Positions 12,401-25,759 of a stretch of DNA of 64,000 bases are shown piece after piece. The notes under the pieces are model-generated. The model worked only from the letters and a program-made list of their open reading frames with translations, did no database searches and was not told where the DNA came from. The DNA is from a bacterium (GTDB lineage Bacteria; Elusimicrobiota; Elusimicrobia; Elusimicrobiales; UBA9959). The position numbers were made by a program, and so were the translations under genes. The stretch spans positions 1 through 64,000 of the forward strand of contig JAJZPL010000002.1 in assembly GCA_021811185.1 (NCBI GenBank), in the 5' to 3' direction. Within the stretch, counting starts at the first letter, position 1. Each line of letters opens with the position of its first letter.

Positions 12401-13435
12401 GTGAACTACCACATACTGCAGAAAGACAACCTGGATTGCTTTATAAAAAGCCTGGCGAAGCTGATGAAGGTCTACGCGCCCGTGGCGAAAGGCTATAACA
12501 ACTTCGCGTTCGAGGAAGTAACCACGGCGGGGGAAATAACTCTCCCTTACATCCCCACCATACTTCCTCCCAAGAAATTCTTCATGCCGCAGCGCGAGAA
12601 GATGCTCGATTTCGACATCTCCAAGGGCAAGCCCGAAGATACCGCGCCGCTGGACGCCCCGGAGCTGGCCCTGTTCGGCGTGCATACGTGCGACCTGGCC
12701 GGCATTCAATCCCTTAACATGGTGTTCTCGGAACGCCCCAGGGATTACAATTACCTGCGCCGCAAAGAGAAGATAGTGATCATCGGCCTGGAGTGCAACG
12801 ATTACTGCGACGGCCACGCCAGCTGCGCGCTGGTGGGCAACCACAATCCCAACGGCGGGTACGATCTTTTCTTTACCGACCTGGGCGACAAGTTCATAAT
12901 CCACGTGGGCACCCAGAAGGGCGAGGAGCTGGTGGAAAATATGGGCCTGGCCAAGGCCGCCGTGGCCGATTACAGCGCCCTGGAGAAGGTGCGCGAGGCC
13001 AAGAAAGCCGCCTTCAAGAACGAGATAGGCACGGACCAGAAGAAACTGGCGGAGATCTTCGCCAAGGGCGAGAAGAGCAAGGTGTGGCAGGACGTGGGCA
13101 GCCGCTGCGTTTCCTGCGGCAACTGCACCAACGTGTGCCCCACCTGCTACTGCTTCGACATGGCCGACACCATCAACCTGGACATGAAGACCGGGTCGCG
13201 CAACCGCACCTGGGATTCCTGCCAGTTCCAGACTTTCGCCGCGGTCGCCGGGGGCGAGAACTTCCGCGAAGAACGGGCCGAGCGCCAGCGCCACCGCTAC
13301 TTCCGCAAGTTCAAGTACCCGCTGGACAAGTTCTACCGCGCTTTCTGCACCGGCTGCGGCCGCTGCACCCGCACCTGCATGGCCAAGATAAGCCTGAAGG
13401 AAACCCTTAAGGCGCTTGTGGCCGAAAGCAAATAA
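12401..13435 (+). CDS. hydB: Group 3b [NiFe] hydrogenase (sulfhydrogenase) beta subunit, Fe-S
   Basis: A 344-residue electron-transfer subunit of a cytoplasmic NADP-linked bidirectional hydrogenase. Two 4Fe-4S ferredoxin motifs are visible: C236-C239-C242-C246 (CVSCGNCTNVC) and C316-C319-C322-C326 (CTGCGRCTRTC). The N-terminal part (for example ALFGVHTCDLAGI and GLECNDYCD) is typical of the HydB/AsrA-type family. Translation starts at GTG with SD CGGAGG. It leads the hydB-G-D-A-protease operon, the same order as archaeal sulfhydrogenase I. It passes electrons between the delta/alpha module and HydG. Confidence 0.93.
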   Translation: MNYHILQKDNLDCFIKSLAKLMKVYAPVAKGYNNFAFEEVTTAGEITLPYIPTILPPKKFFMPQREKMLDFDISKGKPEDTAPLDAPELALFGVHTCDLAGIQSLNMVFSERPRDYNYLRRKEKIVIIGLECNDYCDGHASCALVGNHNPNGGYDLFFTDLGDKFIIHVGTQKGEELVENMGLAKAAVADYSALEKVREAKKAAFKNEIGTDQKKLAEIFAKGEKSKVWQDVGSRCVSCGNCTNVCPTCYCFDMADTINLDMKTGSRNRTWDSCQFQTFAAVAGGENFREERAERQRHRYFRKFKYPLDKFYRAFCTGCGRCTRTCMAKISLKETLKALVAESK

Positions 13436-13447
13436 TTAAGGAGATTT

Positions 13448-14284
13448 ATGACCGAGGAAATCAAGAATTCCAACTGGAGGCTCCGCAAGGGGCAGATCAT
13501 AGCCGCCAAGCAGATGACGCCCGCCGAAAAGTGGTTCGACATCAAGCTGGAGGACGGCGACCTGGACCACGAGCCAGGGCAGTTCGTGCAGGTGGAGCTG
13601 TACGGCATAGGCGAAGCGCCTATTTCCGTGTGTTCCAGCCCGACGAAGCGCGGCTCCTTCGAGCTGACCGTGCGCTCCGCCGGCCGGCTGACTAAGCACA
13701 TGCACTCGCTGGGCACGGGCGACTGGGTGGGCATCCGCGGACCCTTCGGCAAGCCCTTCCCCGTGAAGCTGATGACCGGCAACGACCTGCTGTTCGTGGC
13801 CGGCGGCCTGGGGATAGCGCCGCTCCGGTCCCTCATTAATTACGTGATGGACAACCGCCGCGAGTTCGGCAAAGTGGACATCCTGCTAGGCTGCAAGACC
13901 CCCGCGGACATGCTGTTCGGCGAGGAGATCAAGCTTTGGCAGAAGCGCCTGGACGTGAACTTCTCCTGCACCGTGGACCGCACGGCCCCGGACTGGAAGG
14001 GCAACGTGGGCCTGATCACCAGCCTGATCCCCGGCGTGAACATAAACCCGGAGAAGACCTTCGGCGTGGTGGTGGGCCCGCCCATCATGTACAAGTTCGT
14101 CATAGCCGAACTCCTTAAGAAGAACCTGCCCGAGCGCCAGATCATCCTCTCGCTCGAGCGGCACATGAAATGCGGCATGGGGAAATGCGGCCATTGCCAG
14201 ATAGACCACCCCAAGAACTACTACTGCTGCAAGGACGGCCCCACCTTTACCTACGAAGAGGTGAAGGAAGCGAAGAAACTTTAA
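13448..14284 (+). CDS. hydG: Sulfhydrogenase gamma subunit, FAD/NAD(P)H oxidoreductase
   Basis: A 278-residue ferredoxin-NADP reductase-like subunit. FAD-binding beta-barrel with EAPISVCSSP (residues about 57-66), then the NAD(P) domain with FVAGGLGIAPLRS. The C-terminal 2Fe-2S site uses C242, C247, C250 and C260 or C261 (KCGMGKCGHCQ). This is the subunit where NADP(H) binds. It begins 12 bases after hydB behind TAAGGAG SD. Confidence 0.94.
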   Translation: MTEEIKNSNWRLRKGQIIAAKQMTPAEKWFDIKLEDGDLDHEPGQFVQVELYGIGEAPISVCSSPTKRGSFELTVRSAGRLTKHMHSLGTGDWVGIRGPFGKPFPVKLMTGNDLLFVAGGLGIAPLRSLINYVMDNRREFGKVDILLGCKTPADMLFGEEIKLWQKRLDVNFSCTVDRTAPDWKGNVGLITSLIPGVNINPEKTFGVVVGPPIMYKFVIAELLKKNLPERQIILSLERHMKCGMGKCGHCQIDHPKNYYCCKDGPTFTYEEVKEAKKL

Positions 14285-14298
14285 GACGGAGAACAACG

Positions 14299-15072
14299 AT
14301 GACAATGGAAAATAAACCCGTACCCACAGCCGCCAAGCCCAAGGTGGCGTTCTTTGACTTCGCCTGCTGCGAAGGCTGCCAGCTGCAGGTGGCCAACCTG
14401 GGCGAGGCCCTGCTGGACATCCTCGGCGCCATCGACGTGGTGGAGTTCCGCGAGGTGATGAGCGAGAAATACGACAAGGATTACGACGTGGTCATAGTCG
14501 AGGGTTCGATCACCGACCATCACGCCGAGGAGCGCATCAAGAAGATCCGCGCGCGCGCCAAGGTGCTGATAGCCTACGGTTCCTGCGCCACCATCGGCGG
14601 CGTGAACGGCATGAAGAATTCCTTCGAACTGGACGAGATCCGGGCCAGCGTGTACGGCAAGGATTACAAGCTGTTCGACAGCACGCCTACCCGCCCCATC
14701 CACCAGGTGGTGAAGGTGGACTACTTCGTGAACGGCTGCCCCATCTACCCGCCCGAGCTGATAGAGGTGCTCAAGAACGCGCTGCGCGGCGTTCCCTACA
14801 CCGTGCCCGACAACCCGGTCTGCTCCGAGTGCAAGCTCAACGAGAACGTCTGCATGTACGAGCGGGGGATCTCCTGCCTGGGCCCGTGGACCAAGGCCGG
14901 CTGCAATTCGTGGTGCGTCAACAACGGCAACATCTGCTACGGCTGCCGCGGCGAGGTGAAGAACCCCGCCAGGAACGCCAACGACGTTATCGGCAAATAT
15001 AACCTGAAGCCCGAACTTATCAAAGCCAAGTTCGACATGTACAACAAGTGCAAGGAGGCCGACGCTAAATGA
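14299..15072 (+). CDS. hydD: Sulfhydrogenase delta subunit, [NiFe] small subunit
   Basis: A 257-residue small hydrogenase subunit carrying three Fe-S clusters. The proximal-cluster start is DFACCEGCQLQ, followed by YGSCATIGG and NGCPIYPPE, and a C-terminal cysteine set (VCSECKLNENVC, ISCLG, AGCNSWC, ICYGC). No Tat signal is present, as expected for the cytoplasmic group 3. The ATG at 14299 follows GACGGAGAAC; in-frame codons upstream overlap hydG and do not belong. Overlaps hydA by 4 bases. Confidence 0.95.
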   Translation: MTMENKPVPTAAKPKVAFFDFACCEGCQLQVANLGEALLDILGAIDVVEFREVMSEKYDKDYDVVIVEGSITDHHAEERIKKIRARAKVLIAYGSCATIGGVNGMKNSFELDEIRASVYGKDYKLFDSTPTRPIHQVVKVDYFVNGCPIYPPELIEVLKNALRGVPYTVPDNPVCSECKLNENVCMYERGISCLGPWTKAGCNSWCVNNGNICYGCRGEVKNPARNANDVIGKYNLKPELIKAKFDMYNKCKEADAK

Positions 15073-16400
15073 CCACCGACAACAAGAACCTGGATATCAA
15101 GGTAGAATATCTCACCCGCGTGGAAGGCCACGGCAACATAGTGGTGAACGTGAACAACGGCAAGGTGGAAAAGTGCGAGTTCCACGTGGTGGAATCGCCC
15201 CGGCTGTTCGAAGGGATGCTGCGCGGCCGCTCCATCTTCGAGGCGCAGCACATCACCAGCCGCATCTGCGGCATCTGCTCCTGCGGCCACACGCTGGCCT
15301 CCATCCAGGCGGCCGAGGACGCGCTGGGCGTAAAGCCCACGCCCCAGACCACCAAGCTCAGGAAGCTGCTGCTGGACTACGAGTTCCTCGACAGCCACAT
15401 CCTGCACGTCTACCTGCTGGCCGCGCCCGACATCCTGGGCGTGCCCTCGTTCGTGCCGCTGATCGCCACGCATAACGCCGTGGTGCGCCGCGCGCTGCGC
15501 ATGAAGAAAGCAGCCAACGACGTGTGCGACATCCTGGTGGGGCGCCACGTGCACCCGATCAGCGCCATCGTGGGCGGGTTCACCAAACTGCCCAGCCCCA
15601 AGGAGATCGACGCGCAGATCAAGATCCTGGAAGACATGGCCCCGGACATGGCCGAGACGCTCGCGCTCGCCAAGGCGCTGAAGTTCCCGGACTTCCACCG
15701 CGAGACCGAATACGTGGCGCTGGTCTCCGACGACGGCGAATACCCGCTGCTGGAGGGGGATATCGGTTCCACCGACGGCAAGCGCTTCAAGAAGGCCGAC
15801 TACAAGAAAGCCACCAACGAGTTCATAGACCCGCGCAGCTCCGCCAAGTTCACCAAGCTCTCCCGCGACAGCTTCTTCGTGGGCGCGCTCGCCCGGTTCA
15901 ACCTGAACGCGAACAAGCTGCACCCCAAGGCCAAGGCCGTGGCCGCCGAGCTGGGCCTGAAGCCCGTCTGCCACAACCCCTACCTTAACACCGTGGCGCA
16001 GATCGTGGAGATAGTGCACTGCTACTACCACGCGCTGGAGATCCTTCAGGACCTCAAAAAGAACGGCTTGGACTACAAGCAGGCCGTCACCGTGGGGGCC
16101 AACGAGAAGGGCGTAGTGCCCGTGCGCGCCGGCTCCGGCGTGGGCTCGGTGGAGGTGCCCCGCGGCATCCTGCACCACCACTACGAAACGGATAAGGACG
16201 GCAGGATCAAACTGGCCGACTGCATAATCCCTACCAACCAGAATATCAACAACATCGAGTACGACTTCGCGAAGCTCCTGCCCGAGATCATCACCCTGCC
16301 CAAGGACGACATCCGCCTGCGGCTGGAAATGCTGGTGCGGGCTTACGACCCGTGCATCTCTTGCTCGGCGCATTACCTCGATGTCAAATTCGTGGACTAA
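15069..16400 (+). CDS. hydA: Sulfhydrogenase alpha subunit, [NiFe] catalytic large subunit
   Basis: A 443-residue [NiFe] active-site subunit. L1 is RICGICSCGH (C67, C70 as Ni ligands, H74) and L2 is DPCISCSAH (C429, C432, H435). The eight residues after H435 form the cleavable C-terminal extension. RVEGHGNI near residue 17 is also diagnostic. Subunit order and L1/L2 forms fit group 3b, which couples H2 with NADP(H) and can reduce polysulfide. The downstream protease gene starts inside its last 20 bases. Confidence 0.96.
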   Translation: MTTDNKNLDIKVEYLTRVEGHGNIVVNVNNGKVEKCEFHVVESPRLFEGMLRGRSIFEAQHITSRICGICSCGHTLASIQAAEDALGVKPTPQTTKLRKLLLDYEFLDSHILHVYLLAAPDILGVPSFVPLIATHNAVVRRALRMKKAANDVCDILVGRHVHPISAIVGGFTKLPSPKEIDAQIKILEDMAPDMAETLALAKALKFPDFHRETEYVALVSDDGEYPLLEGDIGSTDGKRFKKADYKKATNEFIDPRSSAKFTKLSRDSFFVGALARFNLNANKLHPKAKAVAAELGLKPVCHNPYLNTVAQIVEIVHCYYHALEILQDLKKNGLDYKQAVTVGANEKGVVPVRAGSGVGSVEVPRGILHHHYETDKDGRIKLADCIIPTNQNINNIEYDFAKLLPEIITLPKDDIRLRLEMLVRAYDPCISCSAHYLDVKFVD

Positions 16401-16857
16401 AGAGGTAAGCGGCGCGCTGGCCCCCAGGGGCCGCACGCTCGTGATAACGCTGGGCAGCACGTTGAGGGCCGACGATGGCGTCGGCCCTTACGTTTGCACC
16501 CATGTGAAGTTCAGCCGCCCGGACCTGCGGCTGCTGGACGCCGGCACCACACCCGAAAGCATAGCCCAGACCGCCATAGACTGGAAGCCCGACAAGATCA
16601 TCCTCGTGGACGCGGCGCACTTTCAGGGCGCGGCGGGGGAACTGCGCGTGATCCCGCTGGAGGCTATTAACCAGCAGACCATCCTCTCCACGCACAGCTT
16701 CCCGCTGTCCGTCACGTTTTCCATCGTCAAGGAAGACACCGGAGCCGAGCTGGTGGTAGTAGGCGTGCAGGCCAAGTCCCTGGACTACAAAGAAGGCCTC
16801 TCCCCCGAAGTGGAAGAAACCGCTTCAAAACTTGCCGACTATTTTAACAGTCTTTAA
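16381..16857 (+). CDS. Hydrogenase maturation endopeptidase (HycI/HyaD family)
   Basis: A 158-residue protease that trims the large-subunit C-terminus after Ni insertion. Landmarks: TLGSTLRADDGVGPYV (nickel-sensing acidic residues), LLDAGTTPE and ILVDAAHFQGAAGE. It overlaps hydA by 20 bases, tying its production to the substrate. The presumed cut is after H435 of HydA. Confidence 0.92.
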   Translation: MSNSWTKEVSGALAPRGRTLVITLGSTLRADDGVGPYVCTHVKFSRPDLRLLDAGTTPESIAQTAIDWKPDKIILVDAAHFQGAAGELRVIPLEAINQQTILSTHSFPLSVTFSIVKEDTGAELVVVGVQAKSLDYKEGLSPEVEETASKLADYFNSL

Positions 16858-16940
16858 CACGAGCATTGAAAGTTACCGCAGATATTTAATAGCATAGTAG
16901 TGTCGAATTGCCATCAATGGGTTAGCTTCAGGGGATCATT

Positions 16941-18059
16941 TTGCGTTCTTTTGTTTTACTTCTCGCCGTGCTTTCTTTAAGCATTCCAGCCTGCTTTGCC
17001 GGGGCGGACAAAACGCTGCTTTCCGCCCGGGAATCCATCCTTTTATCTTCAGCCGCCCCGCAAACCGCGCTGATAAAATACACCGAAGCCTCCAAAAGAT
17101 CCATAGCCGCGCCTGTCACCGCCGAATACGCCTACGCGCTGGCGTGGGGCGGGGTGCCGGAGGCGGCGCTGTTTAACATGGACCGCGCGCTCATAGAGGC
17201 GCCGCTTGACGCCGGCGTGCGGTTCTATCTGTCGGAAATCTTCAACGCCTTCGGCCTGGAGGACGCCTCTTCCGAGCTGGCCGCGCCGGTGCCCGGGTGG
17301 CTTAAAGCGCCGCTTAAACTGCCCGTCCTGGACGTGCCGGCGCCGACCGGCGATCTGGAACATGCGCTGGCCGTCATAAACCTGCTGATGGTGCAGAAAC
17401 GTTATGTCGAAAGCGCCGTGCTGTTCGACCGGCTATGCAAAGCCAATGCCTCCGCCGGCCAGTGTTACGCCGGCTACGCCATAGCGCTCGAGAAACTCGG
17501 CGCTTACAAGTCCGCCGCGGCGGAAGCTGAAAAAGACCTTGCGTTAAGCGATGTGCCCGGCCATAGGACCGTGGCGCAGGCGTATATAACCGGGCTTGAA
17601 AAGCGCGCGCCGCTGAAATACGGCGTCAGCCCGGAGCAGGGGCTTAAGGGGCGGTACCTGGCTTTTTTGGGCGGCAACGTTTCGAACGCCCCGGGGTATT
17701 CGGCCTACAGCGTAAACGGGCGCGTGGGAAAATTTATCAGCGACAGGTTCGACCTCTCGGTCAACGGCGGGCTTAACGGGGGGAACAGCGATAGCGACTA
17801 TAACGGGCTGACGCTGGGCTGTTCGGGGCGTTATAACGCGCCTTTAAGTTTTCTGCCGGTCAACGGCACGCTGGGGGCGAAAGCCGAGCGTATTCCCGCC
17901 CCCGAGAAAGGCCTTACGTTTTTGCTGTCGCCCGGGTTGAGCTATTTCATGCGGAATAGTTCGGTGGATGTTTACCTGGATATAGCGCTGGCGGGCGCCT
18001 ATAGCGGCAGCAGAACGCTGTCCGTGGGTTATACGTTCTATTTTGGCGGCGGGAAATGA
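16941..18059 (+). CDS. Secreted TPR-like / beta-barrel protein, first gene of the Rhs operon
   Basis: A 372-residue envelope protein of unknown function. The only start giving a signal peptide is TTG at 16941 (RSFVLLLAVLSLSIPACFA), preceded by AGGGGA. Residues about 40-220 look helical and TPR-like (ALAVINLLMVQKRYVESAV, AGYAIALEKLGAYKSAAAE). From about 230 it becomes beta-rich, beginning YLAFLGGNVSNAPGYSAY and ending LSVGYTFYFGGGK, as in small outer-membrane barrels. That C-terminal barrel is paralogous to the one in the next gene. ATGA overlap with the next gene. I infer an outer-membrane role linked to the Rhs protein. Confidence 0.7.
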   Translation: MRSFVLLLAVLSLSIPACFAGADKTLLSARESILLSSAAPQTALIKYTEASKRSIAAPVTAEYAYALAWGGVPEAALFNMDRALIEAPLDAGVRFYLSEIFNAFGLEDASSELAAPVPGWLKAPLKLPVLDVPAPTGDLEHALAVINLLMVQKRYVESAVLFDRLCKANASAGQCYAGYAIALEKLGAYKSAAAEAEKDLALSDVPGHRTVAQAYITGLEKRAPLKYGVSPEQGLKGRYLAFLGGNVSNAPGYSAYSVNGRVGKFISDRFDLSVNGGLNGGNSDSDYNGLTLGCSGRYNAPLSFLPVNGTLGAKAERIPAPEKGLTFLLSPGLSYFMRNSSVDVYLDIALAGAYSGSRTLSVGYTFYFGGGK

Positions 18060-18793
18060 AGAAAACTATGCTGCTGGCGCTGGTAATGTTCATGACCGCG
18101 GGCGCGGCCCATGCGGGTGATTGCCCGGCGGTATTAAGCGGCGCTTTTAGCGGCTGTAAAGTATCGGGCGGAATAATGCGCCTGGGGGCCACCCGGGTAT
18201 ATTTGAATGATAAGGCCGGGGAGCGGGCGGCTGCGGTAGCCGGCGCCGCCGGCGGGGCAGGCGGGCTGGCCGTGGTGGCCTGGCCCGGCGGTGGCGAACT
18301 TTGGTCGGTCGGCAAAGGCGCGCCTGAGCGGCTGAACGGGTGGAACGACCTTGTGCTGGACGCCCTGGCGACGAGCAGCCGGCGCGGTAATTGGTTCGCA
18401 TATTTCGGCGGGCAGGTAATGAGCGGCGGGGATTATCCCTACAGCGGCTTCAACGCGAGGCTCGGCACCATGCTGTTAAAGAACCGTTACGACGCCTCGG
18501 TAGGCTATTCAACCTCCAAGGCCAGCGAGGACGGCGCCTCGGCCACGCGCTCGCTGGACCTGACCGGGCGGGCGCTGTTCAATTTTACGCGGCATTCCGG
18601 GCTTAACGCCGGCGCCAGGCTGGGGTACGCCAGATCCGGCGACGCGGACGGCATGTGGACGCCGTCGGTGCTGGGTGGGCTGAATATTTATCTGCCGCAG
18701 GGCAGCCTGGACCTGACCTTTACCTTCGGCGAGGCGGGCAGCCGCAGTGTGGAGCTTGGATACACGGTTTACTTCAACAGGGGCGGGCGATGA
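18056..18793 (+). CDS. Secreted beta-barrel protein, second gene of the Rhs operon
   Basis: A 245-residue protein with signal peptide MKKTMLLALVMFMTAGAAHA. A short first domain (about 22-105) precedes a barrel-like domain starting WFAYFGGQVMSGGDYPYSG and ending VELGYTVYFNRGGR. Its order of features (aromatic-GG start, YSGFNARLG, RYDASVGYS, terminal YxVYF) parallels the C-terminal domain of the gene before. It overlaps both neighbours by ATGA, so the barrel pair and the Rhs gene are made together. No homologous family recognised by name. Confidence 0.7.
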   Translation: MKKTMLLALVMFMTAGAAHAGDCPAVLSGAFSGCKVSGGIMRLGATRVYLNDKAGERAAAVAGAAGGAGGLAVVAWPGGGELWSVGKGAPERLNGWNDLVLDALATSSRRGNWFAYFGGQVMSGGDYPYSGFNARLGTMLLKNRYDASVGYSTSKASEDGASATRSLDLTGRALFNFTRHSGLNAGARLGYARSGDADGMWTPSVLGGLNIYLPQGSLDLTFTFGEAGSRSVELGYTVYFNRGGR

Positions 18794-21700
18794 AACGGCT
18801 GCTTCCCCTGGTCCTTATCTTTGCCGTTCCTGTCGGGCGGGCGCGGGCGAGCTGGACGTATTCCGGCACGTATTCCTGGCATGTTACCGCTACCTGCTGC
18901 AGCGGCGGTACCTGTTCCACCGGCGGGGTGTCCGGCGGGGATAATTTACTGCAGGGCGGCCTTTCGGCCGCCGATTGCGCGTACCTTAAGACTTCCTTAG
19001 GCGGAGCGCTGACCACTATACGGGCGGTATACCAGAGCCAGCTGGCCTTATGCCAGGCCAGCGCCTGCACCTGCAGCGGCGATTTTCAGATCGGCAATTC
19101 CAGGTGCAGCGGGTTCGACGATTTCGGCGCCGGTTCTTTCAACGGCCAGGGCGCGTTCAGCCAGACGGGCGAGGGGGTGGCGCAGTTCTCGCCGCATTAC
19201 ACTTCCGATTTCGAGGAATGGTCCACCGACGCCATGGCGCGGTGGCGCGCGTTCCGCGCGCGCAACGCGCTGGTGCAGAGCGAGGGCGTGAATATCTGGC
19301 CCAACGGCAGGTTCGGCGGCTTGGTGGAAGGCATCTACAACAAAATTGCCGCCAGGCAAAAAGCCCGGCCGGCGCCGCTGTACCCTTCGCTCGACGGCAG
19401 TTCCGCGCCGGAGAGCTCGGATGAATATGCCGGGCACTACGTGGACTATAAAATGCTGAAAGCGGACGAGCCTTCGTACGCGCAGCTGGCCGGCGAATCC
19501 CTTTTGAACGGCGAGCTGGAGAAACAGCCAGGGTGCGGCTGCCAGCCAAGCGCTTCCGTAGCGCCTGGTTACAGCATCCAGTACAATTCCCTGCGCGGCG
19601 GCCAGTACGAAGCCGCGGAGCAGAAAGTGGAGCGTTTCCCCGACGGGCGCTCCGTGTTCACGGATGACGGCAATACCCGCTGGATCTTTCGCCCTTACGG
19701 CAGCGCGGACCGGGAAAAAGGCGACAACTATTACAAACCGCCGCCGGGCTGCGCGTACAGGCTTGTTTACGGCGACATTACCGGGCACGCGCGCGGCTAC
19801 CGGGTTGAAAGCCCCGACGGCGGCGTTATGGAATTCTCCACGGCCCCCGGGCGGGACCTCTGGCGCCCGAGCCGCTATAACGCGGCGGACGGGAGCTGGC
19901 TCACCTACGATTACGGGACTAACGGGTTGGCGCGGATAACGGATATGCACGGGCGTTATTTCGCCTGCGAGCGCGACGCGCGCGGTTTGCCGCTGACGGT
20001 TACGGACAATGACGGCAAAAAGACGACTTATTCCTACGACGCCGCCGGGCGCGTGACCGCGGCCTTGCTGCCCGACGGCTTTAAAAAGCAGTTCACCTAT
20101 GATCCCGCGGGCCTGATGACCTCCGCCAGGAACGGCGCGCTGGCGGCCGAGCATTACACCTACGACCCTTCGGGCCGCCTGCTAACGTCCGAATCCGAGG
20201 GGGGCGTGAACCGCCTGGAGCATTACTACTACGACGCTTCCTCCAAAACCGCTATTGCCGACGCTTTCGGCGCGAAGACCGTATTCACTTACAAGAACGA
20301 AGGCGGGCACAAGCTGACTACGGCGGTAACCGACGCGCTGGGCGGTAAAACCGCGCTTACCTACGACGCGAATTATAATATAGCCTCGGCCACGGACCAG
20401 CTTGGCCGCGCCGCCAGGTATGCGCGCAACAACAACGGCGACCCCGAAGCCATTACCGACGCGCTGGGCAATACCGCTACCATACAGTACCAGGTGAAGC
20501 TTAATTACAAAGACGTTCTCGGCGAACATACCGACTACTATTCAAGACCCGTAAAGATAACCGACGCCCTTGGCCGCAAGACCAAACTGGATTATGATAG
20601 CTACGGCAACCTGGCCAGGACCGAGGACGCGCTGGGCAACAAAACCGGCATGGCTTACGACAAAGCCGGCCACATGCTGGAGCTGCGTGACGCCATGGGG
20701 GCCACCTACAAGTACGAATACACCATGGGTTTAACCCGAAGCGTAGACCCGCTTGGCCGCGTAACAAAATACAAGCGTGACGCGGACCTGCACGTTACCC
20801 AACTTGTGGATCCGCTCGGGCGCAGCACCACTTTTACCTACGACCTCAGCGGCAACGTGACCGAGGTGCGTAATCCGGCCAATTTCGTCACTAAATTCGC
20901 ATATGGCAACGGCGCGTGCCCTTCCTGCGGCGGCAGCCAGCTTTCGGCCCTTACCGACCCTAAGGGTAATACTTGGACCTTTGGTTATGATCAGTATGGC
21001 CGGCTGACCGATACTGCCAACCCGCTTGGTCAGCGCAAGGCTTACGCTTACGACAAAATGTCGCGTGTGACGGAAGTTAAAGACCCGGCGGGCAATGTCA
21101 CGGCTTACACTTATGACGCGCTGAACCGGCTGACCAGGAAAGATATACAGACGCCTTCCGGCGTTCATGCCGTAACAACCTACACTTACGACGCCGTGGG
21201 CAATATGCTGTCGGCCTCCAACGGGGAAAGTTCTGTGGCTTTTGTCTACGACGCGCTGAACCGCGCCGTGGAAACCCGGCAAAGCTTCGCCGGCAAGACC
21301 TACACCATCAGCTACGCTTACGATGCAGTTGGCAACCGCACCATGATGGCCACGCCGTGGGGGAAATACAGTTACACTTACGACGTGCTGAACCGCGTGA
21401 ACGCCATCACCAATCCGCAGGGCATACAAATTAACTTTAAATACGACGCCGCCGGCCGCCGCACGGGTAAGACCGTATTCGCCGCGGCCCGCAACACCGC
21501 GCCTCTCGCCGAGACCGCTTATTCCTACGACGCCGCCGGGCAGCTTTTGAGCATCACCAATAAAGCCGGCGGCAAGGTAGTGGCTTTCGATAATTACACC
21601 TACGACGCCCTGGGCAACCGCGTCAGGATAGAAGACCAGGACGGCGTAAAAGACTACACCTACGACAAGTCCAGCCGGCTGATAGTGGTTAAGCCGGTGC

Positions 21701-22923
21701 CTTTCAATATGGCCAATGCCGAGGCCTTTGTCTACGACCGTAACGGCAACCGCCGCTACGATCGCGGCGCCAAAGACTACAAATACGACGCCGCCAACCG
21801 CCTGCTGGAGAACACAGTCTATACTTACACCCACGACCAGCTAGGCAACCTGACCAGCCGCACCGAAATCGCCAGCAGCGCCACCATCATCTACGCCTAC
21901 AATCCCGAGCAGCAACTGTTCGAAGTTGTAACGCCGAAAGATAAGCTGGAATACAAATACGACCCACTGGGCCGTCGTACCGGTCGTACAGTAAACGGCG
22001 CTACGGTCCACTATGTCTACGACGGACAGGACATAATCACGGAACTAGACGAAGCCGGAACCCCTATCAACACCTACACCAACGGCCCCGGCATAGACGA
22101 GCCTCTGGTAATGTCCAAGCCCGAAGGCAAGGCTTACTACTATCATGCCGACGCCCTGGGAAGCATAACTGCAATAACGGACGACGCTAGAAAGTTAGTG
22201 GAAACCTACACTTATAAATCCTATGGCCAAGCGACGGTAAAGGATGCTGGTGGCCAAATAAGTGCTGACTCTCAGGTTGGGAATCTGCGCATGTTCGCCG
22301 CCCGAGAATTTGAGCCAGAGCTAGGCCTCTACAATAATCGCCATCGCTATCTGGACCCGATGCGCGGTGCATTTACGCAAGAAGATCCGATCGGGTTTGA
22401 AGGTAAGGATTTAAATCTTTTTGAGTATGTGTTTTCTTCTCCGCAGAGATCCGGAGACTCGCTGGGTTTAATTACTGATGAGCAATTAGGGAATAAGGAG
22501 AACCATCTTCCGCAAAATGATAGCCCACTTTTGACCAAACAGGATATCGTTAATTGGCTTAGATCGTATGGGAAAGTGCAAATCAATTTTAATGCGGGTA
22601 CTGGCGTAGTCGGAGGATCAGGCCAGCTCCAAATTACAGAGACAGGTCTTTATGGGCGTGTCGGCGGAGGATGGGGCATAGGGTGGGGAATGTCCGGTGG
22701 TCCATCTGTTTCGATAGGAAAGAATTCGGGTTGGGGTTTTTGGGTGTCGGGATCAGGGGGAAATGGTCGTGTCGGATCTTCAATATCCGGGGGGTATTCT
22801 CAAGGGGGACTCAATGGAAGCTATAGCTATGGGTGGGGAGTGGGTAATGGGGAATCAGCTGTTTTCGGCTATAAAGGCTTAATACTTGCCTTTCCACAGT
22901 CTTCCAATGTCTGCACTAAGTAA
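18790..22923 (+). CDS. Sec-exported Rhs/YD-repeat protein with glycine-rich tip
   Basis: A 1377-residue Rhs protein. The start at 18790 overlaps the previous stop (ATGA) and opens a signal peptide (MKRLLPLVLIFAVPVGRARA). Residues 22-120 are Cys-rich; YD repeats (for example TYDALNRLT, YDAVGNR) run from about 330 to 1150. The core-closing signature is LDPMRGAFTQEDPIGFEG at about 1188-1205, ending with DSLG instead of the usual DPLG. After it base composition drops sharply and a variable tip of about 150 residues follows, rich in Gly, Ser and Trp (GGGWGIGWGMSGG). The tip matches no toxin family I recognise. No VgrG, PAAR or Tc components lie nearby. Confidence 0.9.
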   Translation: MKRLLPLVLIFAVPVGRARASWTYSGTYSWHVTATCCSGGTCSTGGVSGGDNLLQGGLSAADCAYLKTSLGGALTTIRAVYQSQLALCQASACTCSGDFQIGNSRCSGFDDFGAGSFNGQGAFSQTGEGVAQFSPHYTSDFEEWSTDAMARWRAFRARNALVQSEGVNIWPNGRFGGLVEGIYNKIAARQKARPAPLYPSLDGSSAPESSDEYAGHYVDYKMLKADEPSYAQLAGESLLNGELEKQPGCGCQPSASVAPGYSIQYNSLRGGQYEAAEQKVERFPDGRSVFTDDGNTRWIFRPYGSADREKGDNYYKPPPGCAYRLVYGDITGHARGYRVESPDGGVMEFSTAPGRDLWRPSRYNAADGSWLTYDYGTNGLARITDMHGRYFACERDARGLPLTVTDNDGKKTTYSYDAAGRVTAALLPDGFKKQFTYDPAGLMTSARNGALAAEHYTYDPSGRLLTSESEGGVNRLEHYYYDASSKTAIADAFGAKTVFTYKNEGGHKLTTAVTDALGGKTALTYDANYNIASATDQLGRAARYARNNNGDPEAITDALGNTATIQYQVKLNYKDVLGEHTDYYSRPVKITDALGRKTKLDYDSYGNLARTEDALGNKTGMAYDKAGHMLELRDAMGATYKYEYTMGLTRSVDPLGRVTKYKRDADLHVTQLVDPLGRSTTFTYDLSGNVTEVRNPANFVTKFAYGNGACPSCGGSQLSALTDPKGNTWTFGYDQYGRLTDTANPLGQRKAYAYDKMSRVTEVKDPAGNVTAYTYDALNRLTRKDIQTPSGVHAVTTYTYDAVGNMLSASNGESSVAFVYDALNRAVETRQSFAGKTYTISYAYDAVGNRTMMATPWGKYSYTYDVLNRVNAITNPQGIQINFKYDAAGRRTGKTVFAAARNTAPLAETAYSYDAAGQLLSITNKAGGKVVAFDNYTYDALGNRVRIEDQDGVKDYTYDKSSRLIVVKPVPFNMANAEAFVYDRNGNRRYDRGAKDYKYDAANRLLENTVYTYTHDQLGNLTSRTEIASSATIIYAYNPEQQLFEVVTPKDKLEYKYDPLGRRTGRTVNGATVHYVYDGQDIITELDEAGTPINTYTNGPGIDEPLVMSKPEGKAYYYHADALGSITAITDDARKLVETYTYKSYGQATVKDAGGQISADSQVGNLRMFAAREFEPELGLYNNRHRYLDPMRGAFTQEDPIGFEGKDLNLFEYVFSSPQRSGDSLGLITDEQLGNKENHLPQNDSPLLTKQDIVNWLRSYGKVQINFNAGTGVVGGSGQLQITETGLYGRVGGGWGIGWGMSGGPSVSIGKNSGWGFWVSGSGGNGRVGSSISGGYSQGGLNGSYSYGWGVGNGESAVFGYKGLILAFPQSSNVCTK
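21014..22215 (+). repeat. Rhs core repeat, copy 1
   Basis: Encodes the stretch from TANPLGQRKAYAYDKMSRVT to ETYTYKSYG in the full-length Rhs gene. It is clearly homologous over about 1.2 kb to 23307-24525, with long identical amino acid runs such as NGESSV, TPWGKYSYTYD and GNLTSRTEIASSATI. Confidence 0.88.
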
Positions 22924-22924
22924 T

Positions 22925-23272
22925 ATGAATATTATGACAACTGACAGGTTCCTTTGGTCATGTTTTGCCTGCTTGGGGTTATTGATGTGTGTGGTGATAC
23001 GATATCGGTATCTTTTTGATTCGTATCTAAAAAATAATCATGCGGATATATGGTGTTCGCTTTCCAGCGGGTCACGTTTCCCGATGACGGATCCTAAGAC
23101 CGCCAAGGCCATTATGCATTTCTTGATCAAAAAAGAATATTTACGAGTTGATGACGCACGCCTAACGGCTATCTCAAGAAAATTAATGCTCTCGCAATTA
23201 GTATATATAACGTTTATGAGCGTGTTTTTTATTCTTGGGATTATGAAAATACGTTCTGGCAGAATTGGATAG
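22925..23272 (+). CDS. Small membrane protein, candidate immunity for the first Rhs tip
   Basis: A 115-residue protein starting at ATG 22925, directly after the Rhs stop. Two hydrophobic segments (about residues 8-24, LWSCFACLGLLMCVVI, and 86-106, LVYITFMSVFFILGI) flank a charged middle. AT-rich like the Rhs tip before it, unlike the GC-rich backbone. Position immediately after a variable Rhs tip is the normal place for a cognate immunity gene; two membrane spans would suit a membrane-acting toxin. No named family recognised, so immunity is inference. Confidence 0.6.
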   Translation: MNIMTTDRFLWSCFACLGLLMCVVIRYRYLFDSYLKNNHADIWCSLSSGSRFPMTDPKTAKAIMHFLIKKEYLRVDDARLTAISRKLMLSQLVYITFMSVFFILGIMKIRSGRIG

Positions 23273-25146
23273 TGGGAGTCTATGTGTCGCCACGAAGAAT
23301 AGTCAATACAGCCAACCCGCTGGGTCAGGCCAAGGCCTACAATTACGACAAGATGTCCCGTGTCACCGAGATTAAGGATCCCGCCGGCAATATAACCTCT
23401 TATACCTATGATGCCCTGAACAGACTGACGAAGAAAGACATTCAGACCACGGCCGGGATACATTCAATAACGGACTATACTTATGATGCCGTTGGGAACC
23501 TTCTGAATATCGCCAATGGGGAGAGCTCGGTCAGCTATACCTACGACCAGTTGAACCGCCCTATTACGACCAGCCAGGCCTTCGCCGGCAAAACTTATCC
23601 CATAACCTATTCCTACGACGCGGTAGGGAACCGCGTCAGTATGACCACGCCGTGGGGGAAATACAGTTACACCTACGACGCGCTGAACCGCTTAACGTCC
23701 ATCCTGAACCCGCAGGGCATAACCGCGGCCTTCACTTACGACGCCGTCGGCCGCCGCACCAGTAAAAAAATCTTCAAAGCCACCCCGGAGCTGCTGGCCG
23801 AGGCTGATTACACTTACGACGCCGCAGGCGAACTGTTAAGCATAACCAACAAAGCAGACAACAAGGTCGTGGCCTTTGCCAACTACGAGTACGACGCCGC
23901 CGGCAACCGGATTAAGAAAGAGGACCAGAACGGCGTAGAGAAATACCGTTACGACGCCGCCAACCGCCTTATAACCGCCGAGCCCGTCCCGTTCGACATG
24001 GCCAAGGCGGAGGGTTTTGTCTATGACAGGAACGGCAACAGAAGATTCGACCGTGGCGCGAAAGACTATAAATACGACGCCGCCAACCGTGTGCTATCTA
24101 ACAGCGTCTACACCTACACGCACGACGCCAACGGCAACCTGACCAGCCGCACCGAAATAGCCAGCAGCGCCACGATAACCTACGCCTATAACCCGGAGCA
24201 ACAGCTTTCCGAAGTGACCACGCCCAAGGATAACTTGGCGTACAAATACGACCCCTTAGGCCGCCGCACTGAAAAGACCGTGAACGGCATTAGCGATAGA
24301 TATGTCTACGATAACGAAGATATAATCGCCATACTGGATAGCAATAGTAACCTGGCCGAAACATTCACCCACGGCCCGGGAATTGATGAGCCGCTGCTTA
24401 TGACAAAAGCGGATGGGAACAATTATTATTACCATGCCGACGGGCTGGGCTCCATAGTGACTTTGACCGACGAAAAAGGCCAGGTACTCGAAACATATGC
24501 GTACAAATCTTATGGCTACGCCACTATAAAGGACCAGAAAGGTGCAATTTTTGATAAATCTAACATAAGCAACCCGTACTTTTTTACGGCTAGGGAACTC
24601 GAAGACGCGTCGGGGTTGTATTATTTGCGCCATAGATATTACGACTGGAATAGGGGGGCTTTTACACAAGAAGATCCGATTGGGTTTGTAGGGATAGATT
24701 TAAATCTATACTCATATGTGCTGGATAATCCCATATTGCTGCTTGATCCGTTTGGCTTACATGCGTTAATATTTGATGGAAAGATTTTGCAGTATTTTAA
24801 TGATGAGATGCGTTTGGTTGGAACATATAACGCGACTTCTGGGGCAATAAATGTTACAGATAGAACGCTAAAAGGAAAGGGCCCCATTCCATTTGGCCTC
24901 TATCTGCTGTATCCGAGTGAGATTTCTAAGACTAATTTTATCCGGAAGTTTCTGGGGGATTGGGGGGAATATCGTGTTCCTTTGCATCCGACATCAGGAA
25001 CAGATACATTTGGCCGAGGTGGTTTCTTTTTGCATGGAGGCAAACGCCCAGGATCAGCTGGATGTGTGGATGTTGGGGCGCAGGACATCGAACTATTTCC
25101 GAAGCTAATTACCCATGAATCCCCAATACTCCTTATTTCTAAATAA
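23272..25146 (+). CDS. Truncated Rhs module with L,D-transpeptidase-like (Tlde1/DUF2778-type) tip
   Basis: A 624-codon frame beginning at GTG 23272, which overlaps the preceding stop. It lacks a signal peptide, the Cys-rich head and the first half of the YD shell, joining Rhs homology abruptly at TANPLGQAKAYNYDKMS. The core ends RGAFTQEDPIGFVG then LLLDPFGLH. The AT-rich tip (about residues 496-624) includes GPIPFGLYLL, LHPTSGTDTFGRGGFFLHGG and the catalytic HGGKRPGSAGC (H588, C598). That histidine-glycine-cysteine pattern is the L,D-transpeptidase active site, closest to DUF2778/Tlde1, toxins that damage peptidoglycan. It may be a silent donor cassette or a coupled product. Confidence 0.8.
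   Translation: MGVYVSPRRIVNTANPLGQAKAYNYDKMSRVTEIKDPAGNITSYTYDALNRLTKKDIQTTAGIHSITDYTYDAVGNLLNIANGESSVSYTYDQLNRPITTSQAFAGKTYPITYSYDAVGNRVSMTTPWGKYSYTYDALNRLTSILNPQGITAAFTYDAVGRRTSKKIFKATPELLAEADYTYDAAGELLSITNKADNKVVAFANYEYDAAGNRIKKEDQNGVEKYRYDAANRLITAEPVPFDMAKAEGFVYDRNGNRRFDRGAKDYKYDAANRVLSNSVYTYTHDANGNLTSRTEIASSATITYAYNPEQQLSEVTTPKDNLAYKYDPLGRRTEKTVNGISDRYVYDNEDIIAILDSNSNLAETFTHGPGIDEPLLMTKADGNNYYYHADGLGSIVTLTDEKGQVLETYAYKSYGYATIKDQKGAIFDKSNISNPYFFTARELEDASGLYYLRHRYYDWNRGAFTQEDPIGFVGIDLNLYSYVLDNPILLLDPFGLHALIFDGKILQYFNDEMRLVGTYNATSGAINVTDRTLKGKGPIPFGLYLLYPSEISKTNFIRKFLGDWGEYRVPLHPTSGTDTFGRGGFFLHGGKRPGSAGCVDVGAQDIELFPKLITHESPILLISK
23307..24525 (+). repeat. Rhs core repeat, copy 2
   Basis: Second copy of the Rhs core segment, homologous to 21014-22215 and in the same orientation. 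It offers a recombination substrate that would exchange one tip plus downstream gene for the other. Confidence 0.88.
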
Positions 25147-25564: not shown

Positions 25565-25759
25565 ATACTGGCCGGTGAAAGCGGCGAACTGACCACTATA
25601 GTGAACGGGATGAAATACAGGTTGACGGTGAGGAACGAAAAAACGCTGAGTTATAAGCCCGAAGGCCAGCCGCTGGGGGCCAATGAACAACTTTATAAAG
25701 CCGATTTCGGCGGCACGGCCGCCGCGGTGGCGCTTACCTACTCTTTCGCAAATTGGTAG
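25565..25759 (+). pseudogene. 3' remnant of a beta-barrel protein gene
   Basis: An open frame of 64 codons and a stop, with no start, bounded upstream by an in-frame TAA (25562-25564). It translates to a barrel-like C-terminus: TTIVNGMKYRLTVRNEKTL, then ADFGGTAAAVALTYSFANW and stop. Alternating hydrophobic strands and a final aromatic residue fit an outer-membrane protein. GC content jumps back to backbone level here, so this looks like the surviving end of a gene interrupted when the Rhs cassette arrived. Confidence 0.6.

Follow-up and report, generated by a model that had tools for sequence, protein, structure and literature searches.

How Rhs-type toxins leave diderm bacteria that have no type VI secretion system (T6SS) is an open question, and a small gene module of the Elusimicrobiota bears on it. 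The module lies on contig JAJZPL010000002.1 of a 3.1 Mb draft genome in 79 contigs (GCA_021811185.1), within a stretch of 64,000 nucleotides that is called the window below. It starts with two genes, A and B, each encoding a predicted outer-membrane barrel protein, and continues with the gene of a large Rhs toxin that carries a Cys-rich N-terminal domain, here called the head. A preliminary description of the window had proposed that the paired barrels export, anchor or display the Rhs shell. Our analysis favours, with a probability of about 0.58, that A-B serves polymorphic toxins bearing the head as a dedicated docking pair in the outer membrane, and the module points to an undescribed way to mount toxins on the cell envelope. 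The module is compact, and gene order together with co-variation allows its head, the candidate partners in the outer membrane and the exchangeable bodies and tips to be told apart. Should the head prove to be a portable address tag, the question becomes directly testable with a reporter cargo.

Conservation of the A-B-head gene order

The three open reading frames (ORFs) had been read as coupled by ATGA overlaps, and this was confirmed, coordinates included (Table 1), for both junctions in the window, A/B and B/Rhs. As judged by eye, the N-termini of A, B and the Rhs protein resemble Sec-type signal peptides. The genome contains five copies of A: two belong to complete modules (in the window and on contig C69), two are cut by contig ends, one of them in B and the other within A, and one is decayed. 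In a survey of 341 genomes of the phylum the A/B overlap recurred in 17 of 18 loci, once as GTGA, and the B/Rhs overlap, at the head, in all 12 readable A-B-Rhs loci. Since there are five copies of A and both overlaps recur, the barrel-barrel-Rhs arrangement is real and not due to chance.

With matches to the TPR region only excluded, A was found in about 21 of the genomes; in five of these, just fragments of it or copies close to the end of a contig are present. B was found in 16 genomes, and a head profile recovered the same 16 plus three marginal matches (Fisher p 9e-25 for co-occurrence of B and head, uncorrected for ancestry). In the genus of the window 11 genomes have both B and the head and 21 have neither. 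Order and co-occurrence of A, B and head reach across genera and into one further family. Across genera the barrel genes thus stay next to these Rhs genes, and the C-terminal domains of A and B are predicted as barrels (see below); on these two points the preliminary description had staked its proposal beforehand.

The A relatives in named genomes come from Elusimicrobia metagenome-assembled genomes (e.g. GWB2_63_22 and CG1_02_56_21), except for three that are titled only 'bacterium'. A phage or plasmid origin was considered and rejected, as A relatives were found neither in viral contigs nor in plasmids. Additional weak A matches across the phylum (E ~1e-4) hardly extended beyond the TPR region and were set aside. 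One marginal head match outside the A-B genomes (L135) reads as an S1-repeat protein and was taken as chance.

The Cys-rich head as the constant partner

The suggestion that the barrels are paired with the Rhs shell is borne out as far as the conserved adjacency goes, but the constant partner is the head. The Rhs core is present in 50 of the 341 genomes, 40 of which lack B. Moreover, at five loci (L070, L073, L071, L069 and L072) A-B has as its neighbour a protein that shows the head motif and lacks Rhs repeats, with A running to the contig end in L073. A head profile trained solely on Rhs-borne heads recognised the L070 protein, which is split by a stop codon, with E-values of 4e-21 and 1e-12, and the proteins of L073, L071, L069 and L072 with 1.5e-6, 1.7e-5, 0.09 and 0.37, respectively; the two weakest assignments depend on gene order and on the motif as read by eye. 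These non-Rhs heads rank directly under the true Rhs heads in the profile list, and no Pfam domain over the cut-off was found in the non-Rhs cargo proteins. Because the head adjoins A-B on proteins without Rhs repeats, and most genomes with Rhs lack B, we take the Cys-rich head to be the constant partner.

The in-frame stop codon in L070 (L070:1494-2792) is either natural or an assembly error. L069, L071 and L072 contain an extra secreted gene, beta-propeller-like by eye, between the head protein and A, for which the two copies scanned gave no Pfam match; its place beside A-B suggests a second module type. In a genome without B, locus L134 (G205:C139:16995-17225), another of the three marginal head matches, has a secreted ORF of 371 aa in which the first Cys block (DCPGT..W...NCSC) is all that is present of the head.

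The head holds 10 of the 15 Cys residues of the Rhs protein. No Pfam family was found for the head in the window, nor one consistent family among 11 heads. The rest of the protein is that of an Rhs/YD toxin, with matches over the curated cut-offs for the YD repeats (PF05593, 2e-78) and the Rhs-associated core domain (TIGR03696, 3e-12) and matches to solved Rhs shells in the PDB to 3e-41 (e.g. 7q97 and 8h8a). Its tip is only 27% identical, over 86 aligned residues, to that of the paralogue on C69. Tips that differ between modules, small downstream genes and orphan tips mark the system as a polymorphic toxin, with a putative immunity role for the small genes.

Head and B also vary together. In the 12 A-B-Rhs loci, distance between heads correlates with that of the B barrel (r 0.70), of the B N-terminal domain (0.63) and of A (0.46-0.55), whereas with the shell to which the head is fused r is 0.09 (p 0.42). 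With the distance of A held constant the correlation between head and B barrel is 0.53-0.61, and when single loci are left out in turn, r ranges between 0.59 and 0.81 (B barrel) and between -0.10 and 0.41 (shell). Identity between the genome's two complete modules is 65-66% in A, 67% in the shell, 40% in B and 26% in the head. These sequence comparisons fit an inheritance of B and head as what may be a specificity unit.

Predicted barrel proteins A and B and their possible roles

The C-terminal domains of A and B, about 135 residues each, had been described as paralogous, and profile comparison agrees (hhalign 98.1%, E 7e-14, 130 columns), as do searches within the genome (E 3e-3 and 4e-4). 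AlphaFold2, run on alignments of 16 (A) and 14 (B) sequences, predicts exactly eight strands in both, with a predicted local distance difference test (pLDDT) of 85 and 83, respectively, in line with the outer-membrane barrels that the preliminary description had expected from structure prediction. Hydrophobicity alternates along the barrel domains (z 3.7 and 3.4 relative to shuffled columns; for the TPR part of A, z is 0.1). Foldseek retrieved BcsC (top), OmpA, OprF and NspA for A, and Ail, OmpA, NspA and OmpX for B, all of them except BcsC being 8-stranded; the match to OmpA (1qjp; TMt 0.66 for A and 0.71 for B) makes both, by prediction, OmpA-like in fold, with an 8-strand up-and-down membrane barrel. 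The last strand of both barrels is a conserved one of the GYTVYF type, which resembles the signal recognised by the barrel assembly machinery. The N-terminal half of A resembles TPR domains (11 of 16 family members match Pfam TPR families; PDB TPR proteins to 1e-7), and by the usual barrel topology this domain and the N-terminal domain of B would lie in the periplasm. No convincing Pfam or NCBIfam family was found for the A barrel or for B, and none in PADLOC for A and B; NCBIfam matches of A are scattered, mostly of the TPR type, and none is common to more than four of the 16 members.

Known export systems were searched for in the 16 A-B-head genomes. VipB was found in none of them (the E. 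coli control was positive), which sets the toxin apart from T6SS Rhs effectors and agrees with the earlier proposal of a different route. The GspL domain, the sole component of the type II secretion system (T2SS) that was searched, gave no match over the cut-off and one below it, with positive controls. A genome-wide search for ShlB gave no match, but the controls were equally without match. Pfam detected no POTRA or Slam domain in A or B, and no MafB-N or MafA domain in the heads, A or B. DUF560 had no match in the 16 A proteins.

CdiB forms a 16-strand pore of the Omp85 type and carries POTRA domains, and MafA is a lipoprotein. The CdiB/CdiA system (two-partner secretion, T5SSb) resembles the module in having an outer-membrane partner encoded next to a large toxin, an N-terminal targeting domain, a variable tip, an immunity gene and orphan tips, whereas A and B have eight strands and no POTRA, and the cargo is an Rhs shell. 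MafB/MafA of Neisseria likewise has a lineage-restricted N-terminal domain on a Sec-exported toxin, next to a non-polymorphic surface protein as proposed anchor (PMC3482391), but the Elusimicrobiota module has two barrel proteins, of which A has TPRs, and its Cys-rich head is a different domain. The TPR-then-barrel layout of A recalls Slam of the type XI secretion system (T11SS; DUF560) and BcsC/PgaA, the TPRs being placed on the periplasmic side by barrel topology. The barrels of those proteins have 14 or 16 strands (PMC8406197), in contrast to the eight modelled here, and they are single, whereas A and B are two. T6SS Rhs effectors, WapA and bacterial teneurin-like proteins share the Rhs cocoon, core motif and polymorphic tip; in our case there is no VipB in the genomes, and the toxin has a Sec-type signal peptide and dedicated barrel partners. 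The delivery of teneurin-like proteins was described as unresolved in a 2026 paper (PMC13018210). In the available part of a polymorphic-toxin survey Elusimicrobia occupy two table rows (the Ntox36 toxin domain and the barstar immunity family), with no A-B-like partner. Nothing closer was found in the literature on Elusimicrobia, with most subscription papers outside the coverage.

In the docking model that we prefer, all products would reach the periplasm via Sec, as their signal peptides suggest. A and B would insert as OmpA-like 8-stranded barrels, with the TPR domain and the small domain of B remaining periplasmic, as the models and the known topology indicate. The head would then dock on A-B, with B as the specificity partner suggested by the co-variation, and the toxin would be kept at the outer membrane or handed over to it for presentation. 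The variable tip, presumably paired with the downstream immunity gene, would be borne by the Rhs shell or by a body of another kind. Several points weigh against this. B and head are adjacent, so linkage alone could yield their correlation without contact, and the correlation was obtained from just 12 loci of shared ancestry. A and B were folded singly, and with a predicted template modelling score (pTM) of 0.59 (A) and 0.58 (B) the angle between their domains is unreliable. Finally, a single 8-stranded barrel has no protein-sized pore, and neither A nor B as modelled would offer a polypeptide a passage. Because each barrel has eight strands, export through one of them is unlikely; of the three roles first proposed export is therefore weakened, while anchoring or display seems plausible, and on these models A-B is more probably an anchor or an assembly aid than a pore.

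It is rather doubtful that A-B is a new translocon of two coupled 8-stranded barrels that recognises the head and moves toxin-filled Rhs cocoons, or other head-tagged proteins, to the surface. We likewise consider it unlikely that A and B form a composite translocation pore, for instance by joining into one barrel of 16 strands or by multimerising, and that the toxin passes through it head first, in the manner of CdiB/CdiA. Two paralogous 8-strand barrels that are translationally coupled with their cargo would suit such a pore, and TPR plus barrel is a layout also seen in Slam/T11SS and BcsC (PMC8406197). Each barrel, however, is modelled as an OmpA-like 8-strand domain, and the domains of Slam and the POTRA-bearing pores were not detected by Pfam. 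To our knowledge there is no precedent for hetero-oligomeric split barrels of this kind.

A pore would be unnecessary if A-B held the toxins at the inner face of the outer membrane, for delivery by vesicles or outer-membrane exchange without surface display. The head would meet A and B at their periplasmic domains, and myxobacteria deliver polymorphic toxins by outer-membrane exchange (PMC5562445); this, too, we regard as improbable. Surface barrel proteins can also be receptors or shields, and a further predicted barrel gene, D, adjoins the immunity genes, so that A, B and D might protect the producing cell or serve kin toxins as receptors, with export being separate. Such outer-membrane immunity is very unlikely, as A is constant while the tips vary, the small membrane proteins behind each tip suit immunity better, and B co-varies with the head. 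The view that A and B are ordinary outer-membrane proteins, next to a Sec/T2SS-exported Rhs toxin by chance or without a functional tie to it, is largely refuted and deserves hardly any weight: the many Elusimicrobiota Rhs proteins without A-B indicate that Rhs export is possible otherwise, but gene order, overlaps and head co-occurrence are kept across genera and in one further family, and GspL, the one T2SS component searched, did not exceed the cut-off in the 16 genomes.

Downstream genes and surroundings

The module extends 3' of the Rhs gene, a part that the preliminary description had left unmentioned, with an orphan tip, genes for putative membrane immunity proteins and what is left of gene D (Table 1). 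In general the order is A, B, head-Rhs, at least one pair of a tip and a small membrane or secreted protein, and then D.

Table 1. Positions in the window of the module and its parts
Feature	Position	Strand	Remarks
Promoter-like block TTGAAA-18-TAGCAT	16866..16895	+	consensus scan only
Gene A	16941..18059	+	372 aa, TTG start behind AGGGGA; signal peptide, TPR domain, predicted C-terminal 8-stranded outer-membrane barrel
A barrel domain	17646..18056	+	residues 236-372; profile comparison, amphipathicity, AlphaFold2
Gene B	18056..18793	+	245 aa; signal peptide, small alpha/beta domain, predicted C-terminal 8-stranded outer-membrane barrel
B barrel domain	18392..18775	+	residues 113-240; profile comparison, amphipathicity, AlphaFold2
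Head-Rhs polymorphic toxin	18790..22923	+	1377 aa
Cys-rich head (H)	18850..19581	+	residues ~21-264; F..HY...F..W motif
Rhs shell and Rhs core	19582..22470	+	residues ~265-1227
Variable C-terminal tip of toxin	22471..22920	+	assigned to no family
Putative membrane immunity protein, ORF of 128 aa	22886..23272	+	position and hydrophobic stretches only
Orphan Rhs tip without signal peptide, YkuD-like L,D-transpeptidase C-terminus	23272..25146	+	
Putative membrane immunity protein for YkuD tip, ORF of 149 aa	25115..25564	+	
3' remnant of gene D	25565..25759	+	64 aa, 81% identical to D, predicted barrel protein

The YkuD-like domain that ends the orphan tip has an E-value of 7e-4, which is under the Pfam cut-off. 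A YkuD-type tip of 76% identity is found in G022 (L193:1617-2000), followed there, as read by eye, by an ORF resembling the one of 149 aa.

Gene D has four full copies in the genome, besides its last 64 codons in the window, and is also found behind Rhs tips in relatives (L061, L074 and L193-L197). Examples are L011:9637-10818, L061:14233-15321 and L074:8047-9189, and the C-terminus mostly reads ...FANW. From its sequence D is predicted to be another outer-membrane barrel protein that closes the module.

The promoter-like block upstream of A also precedes three other A copies of the genome (four copies altogether). Directly upstream of the module lies a [NiFe] hydrogenase operon with four subunits and the HycI maturation protease (12401-16857), and downstream of it an amino-acid permease gene. 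Rhs-core ORFs of 3900-4600 aa were observed outside the A-B loci (G016:C23, G030:C59, G034:C46 and G192:C84); these very long ORFs are probably a different class of Rhs.

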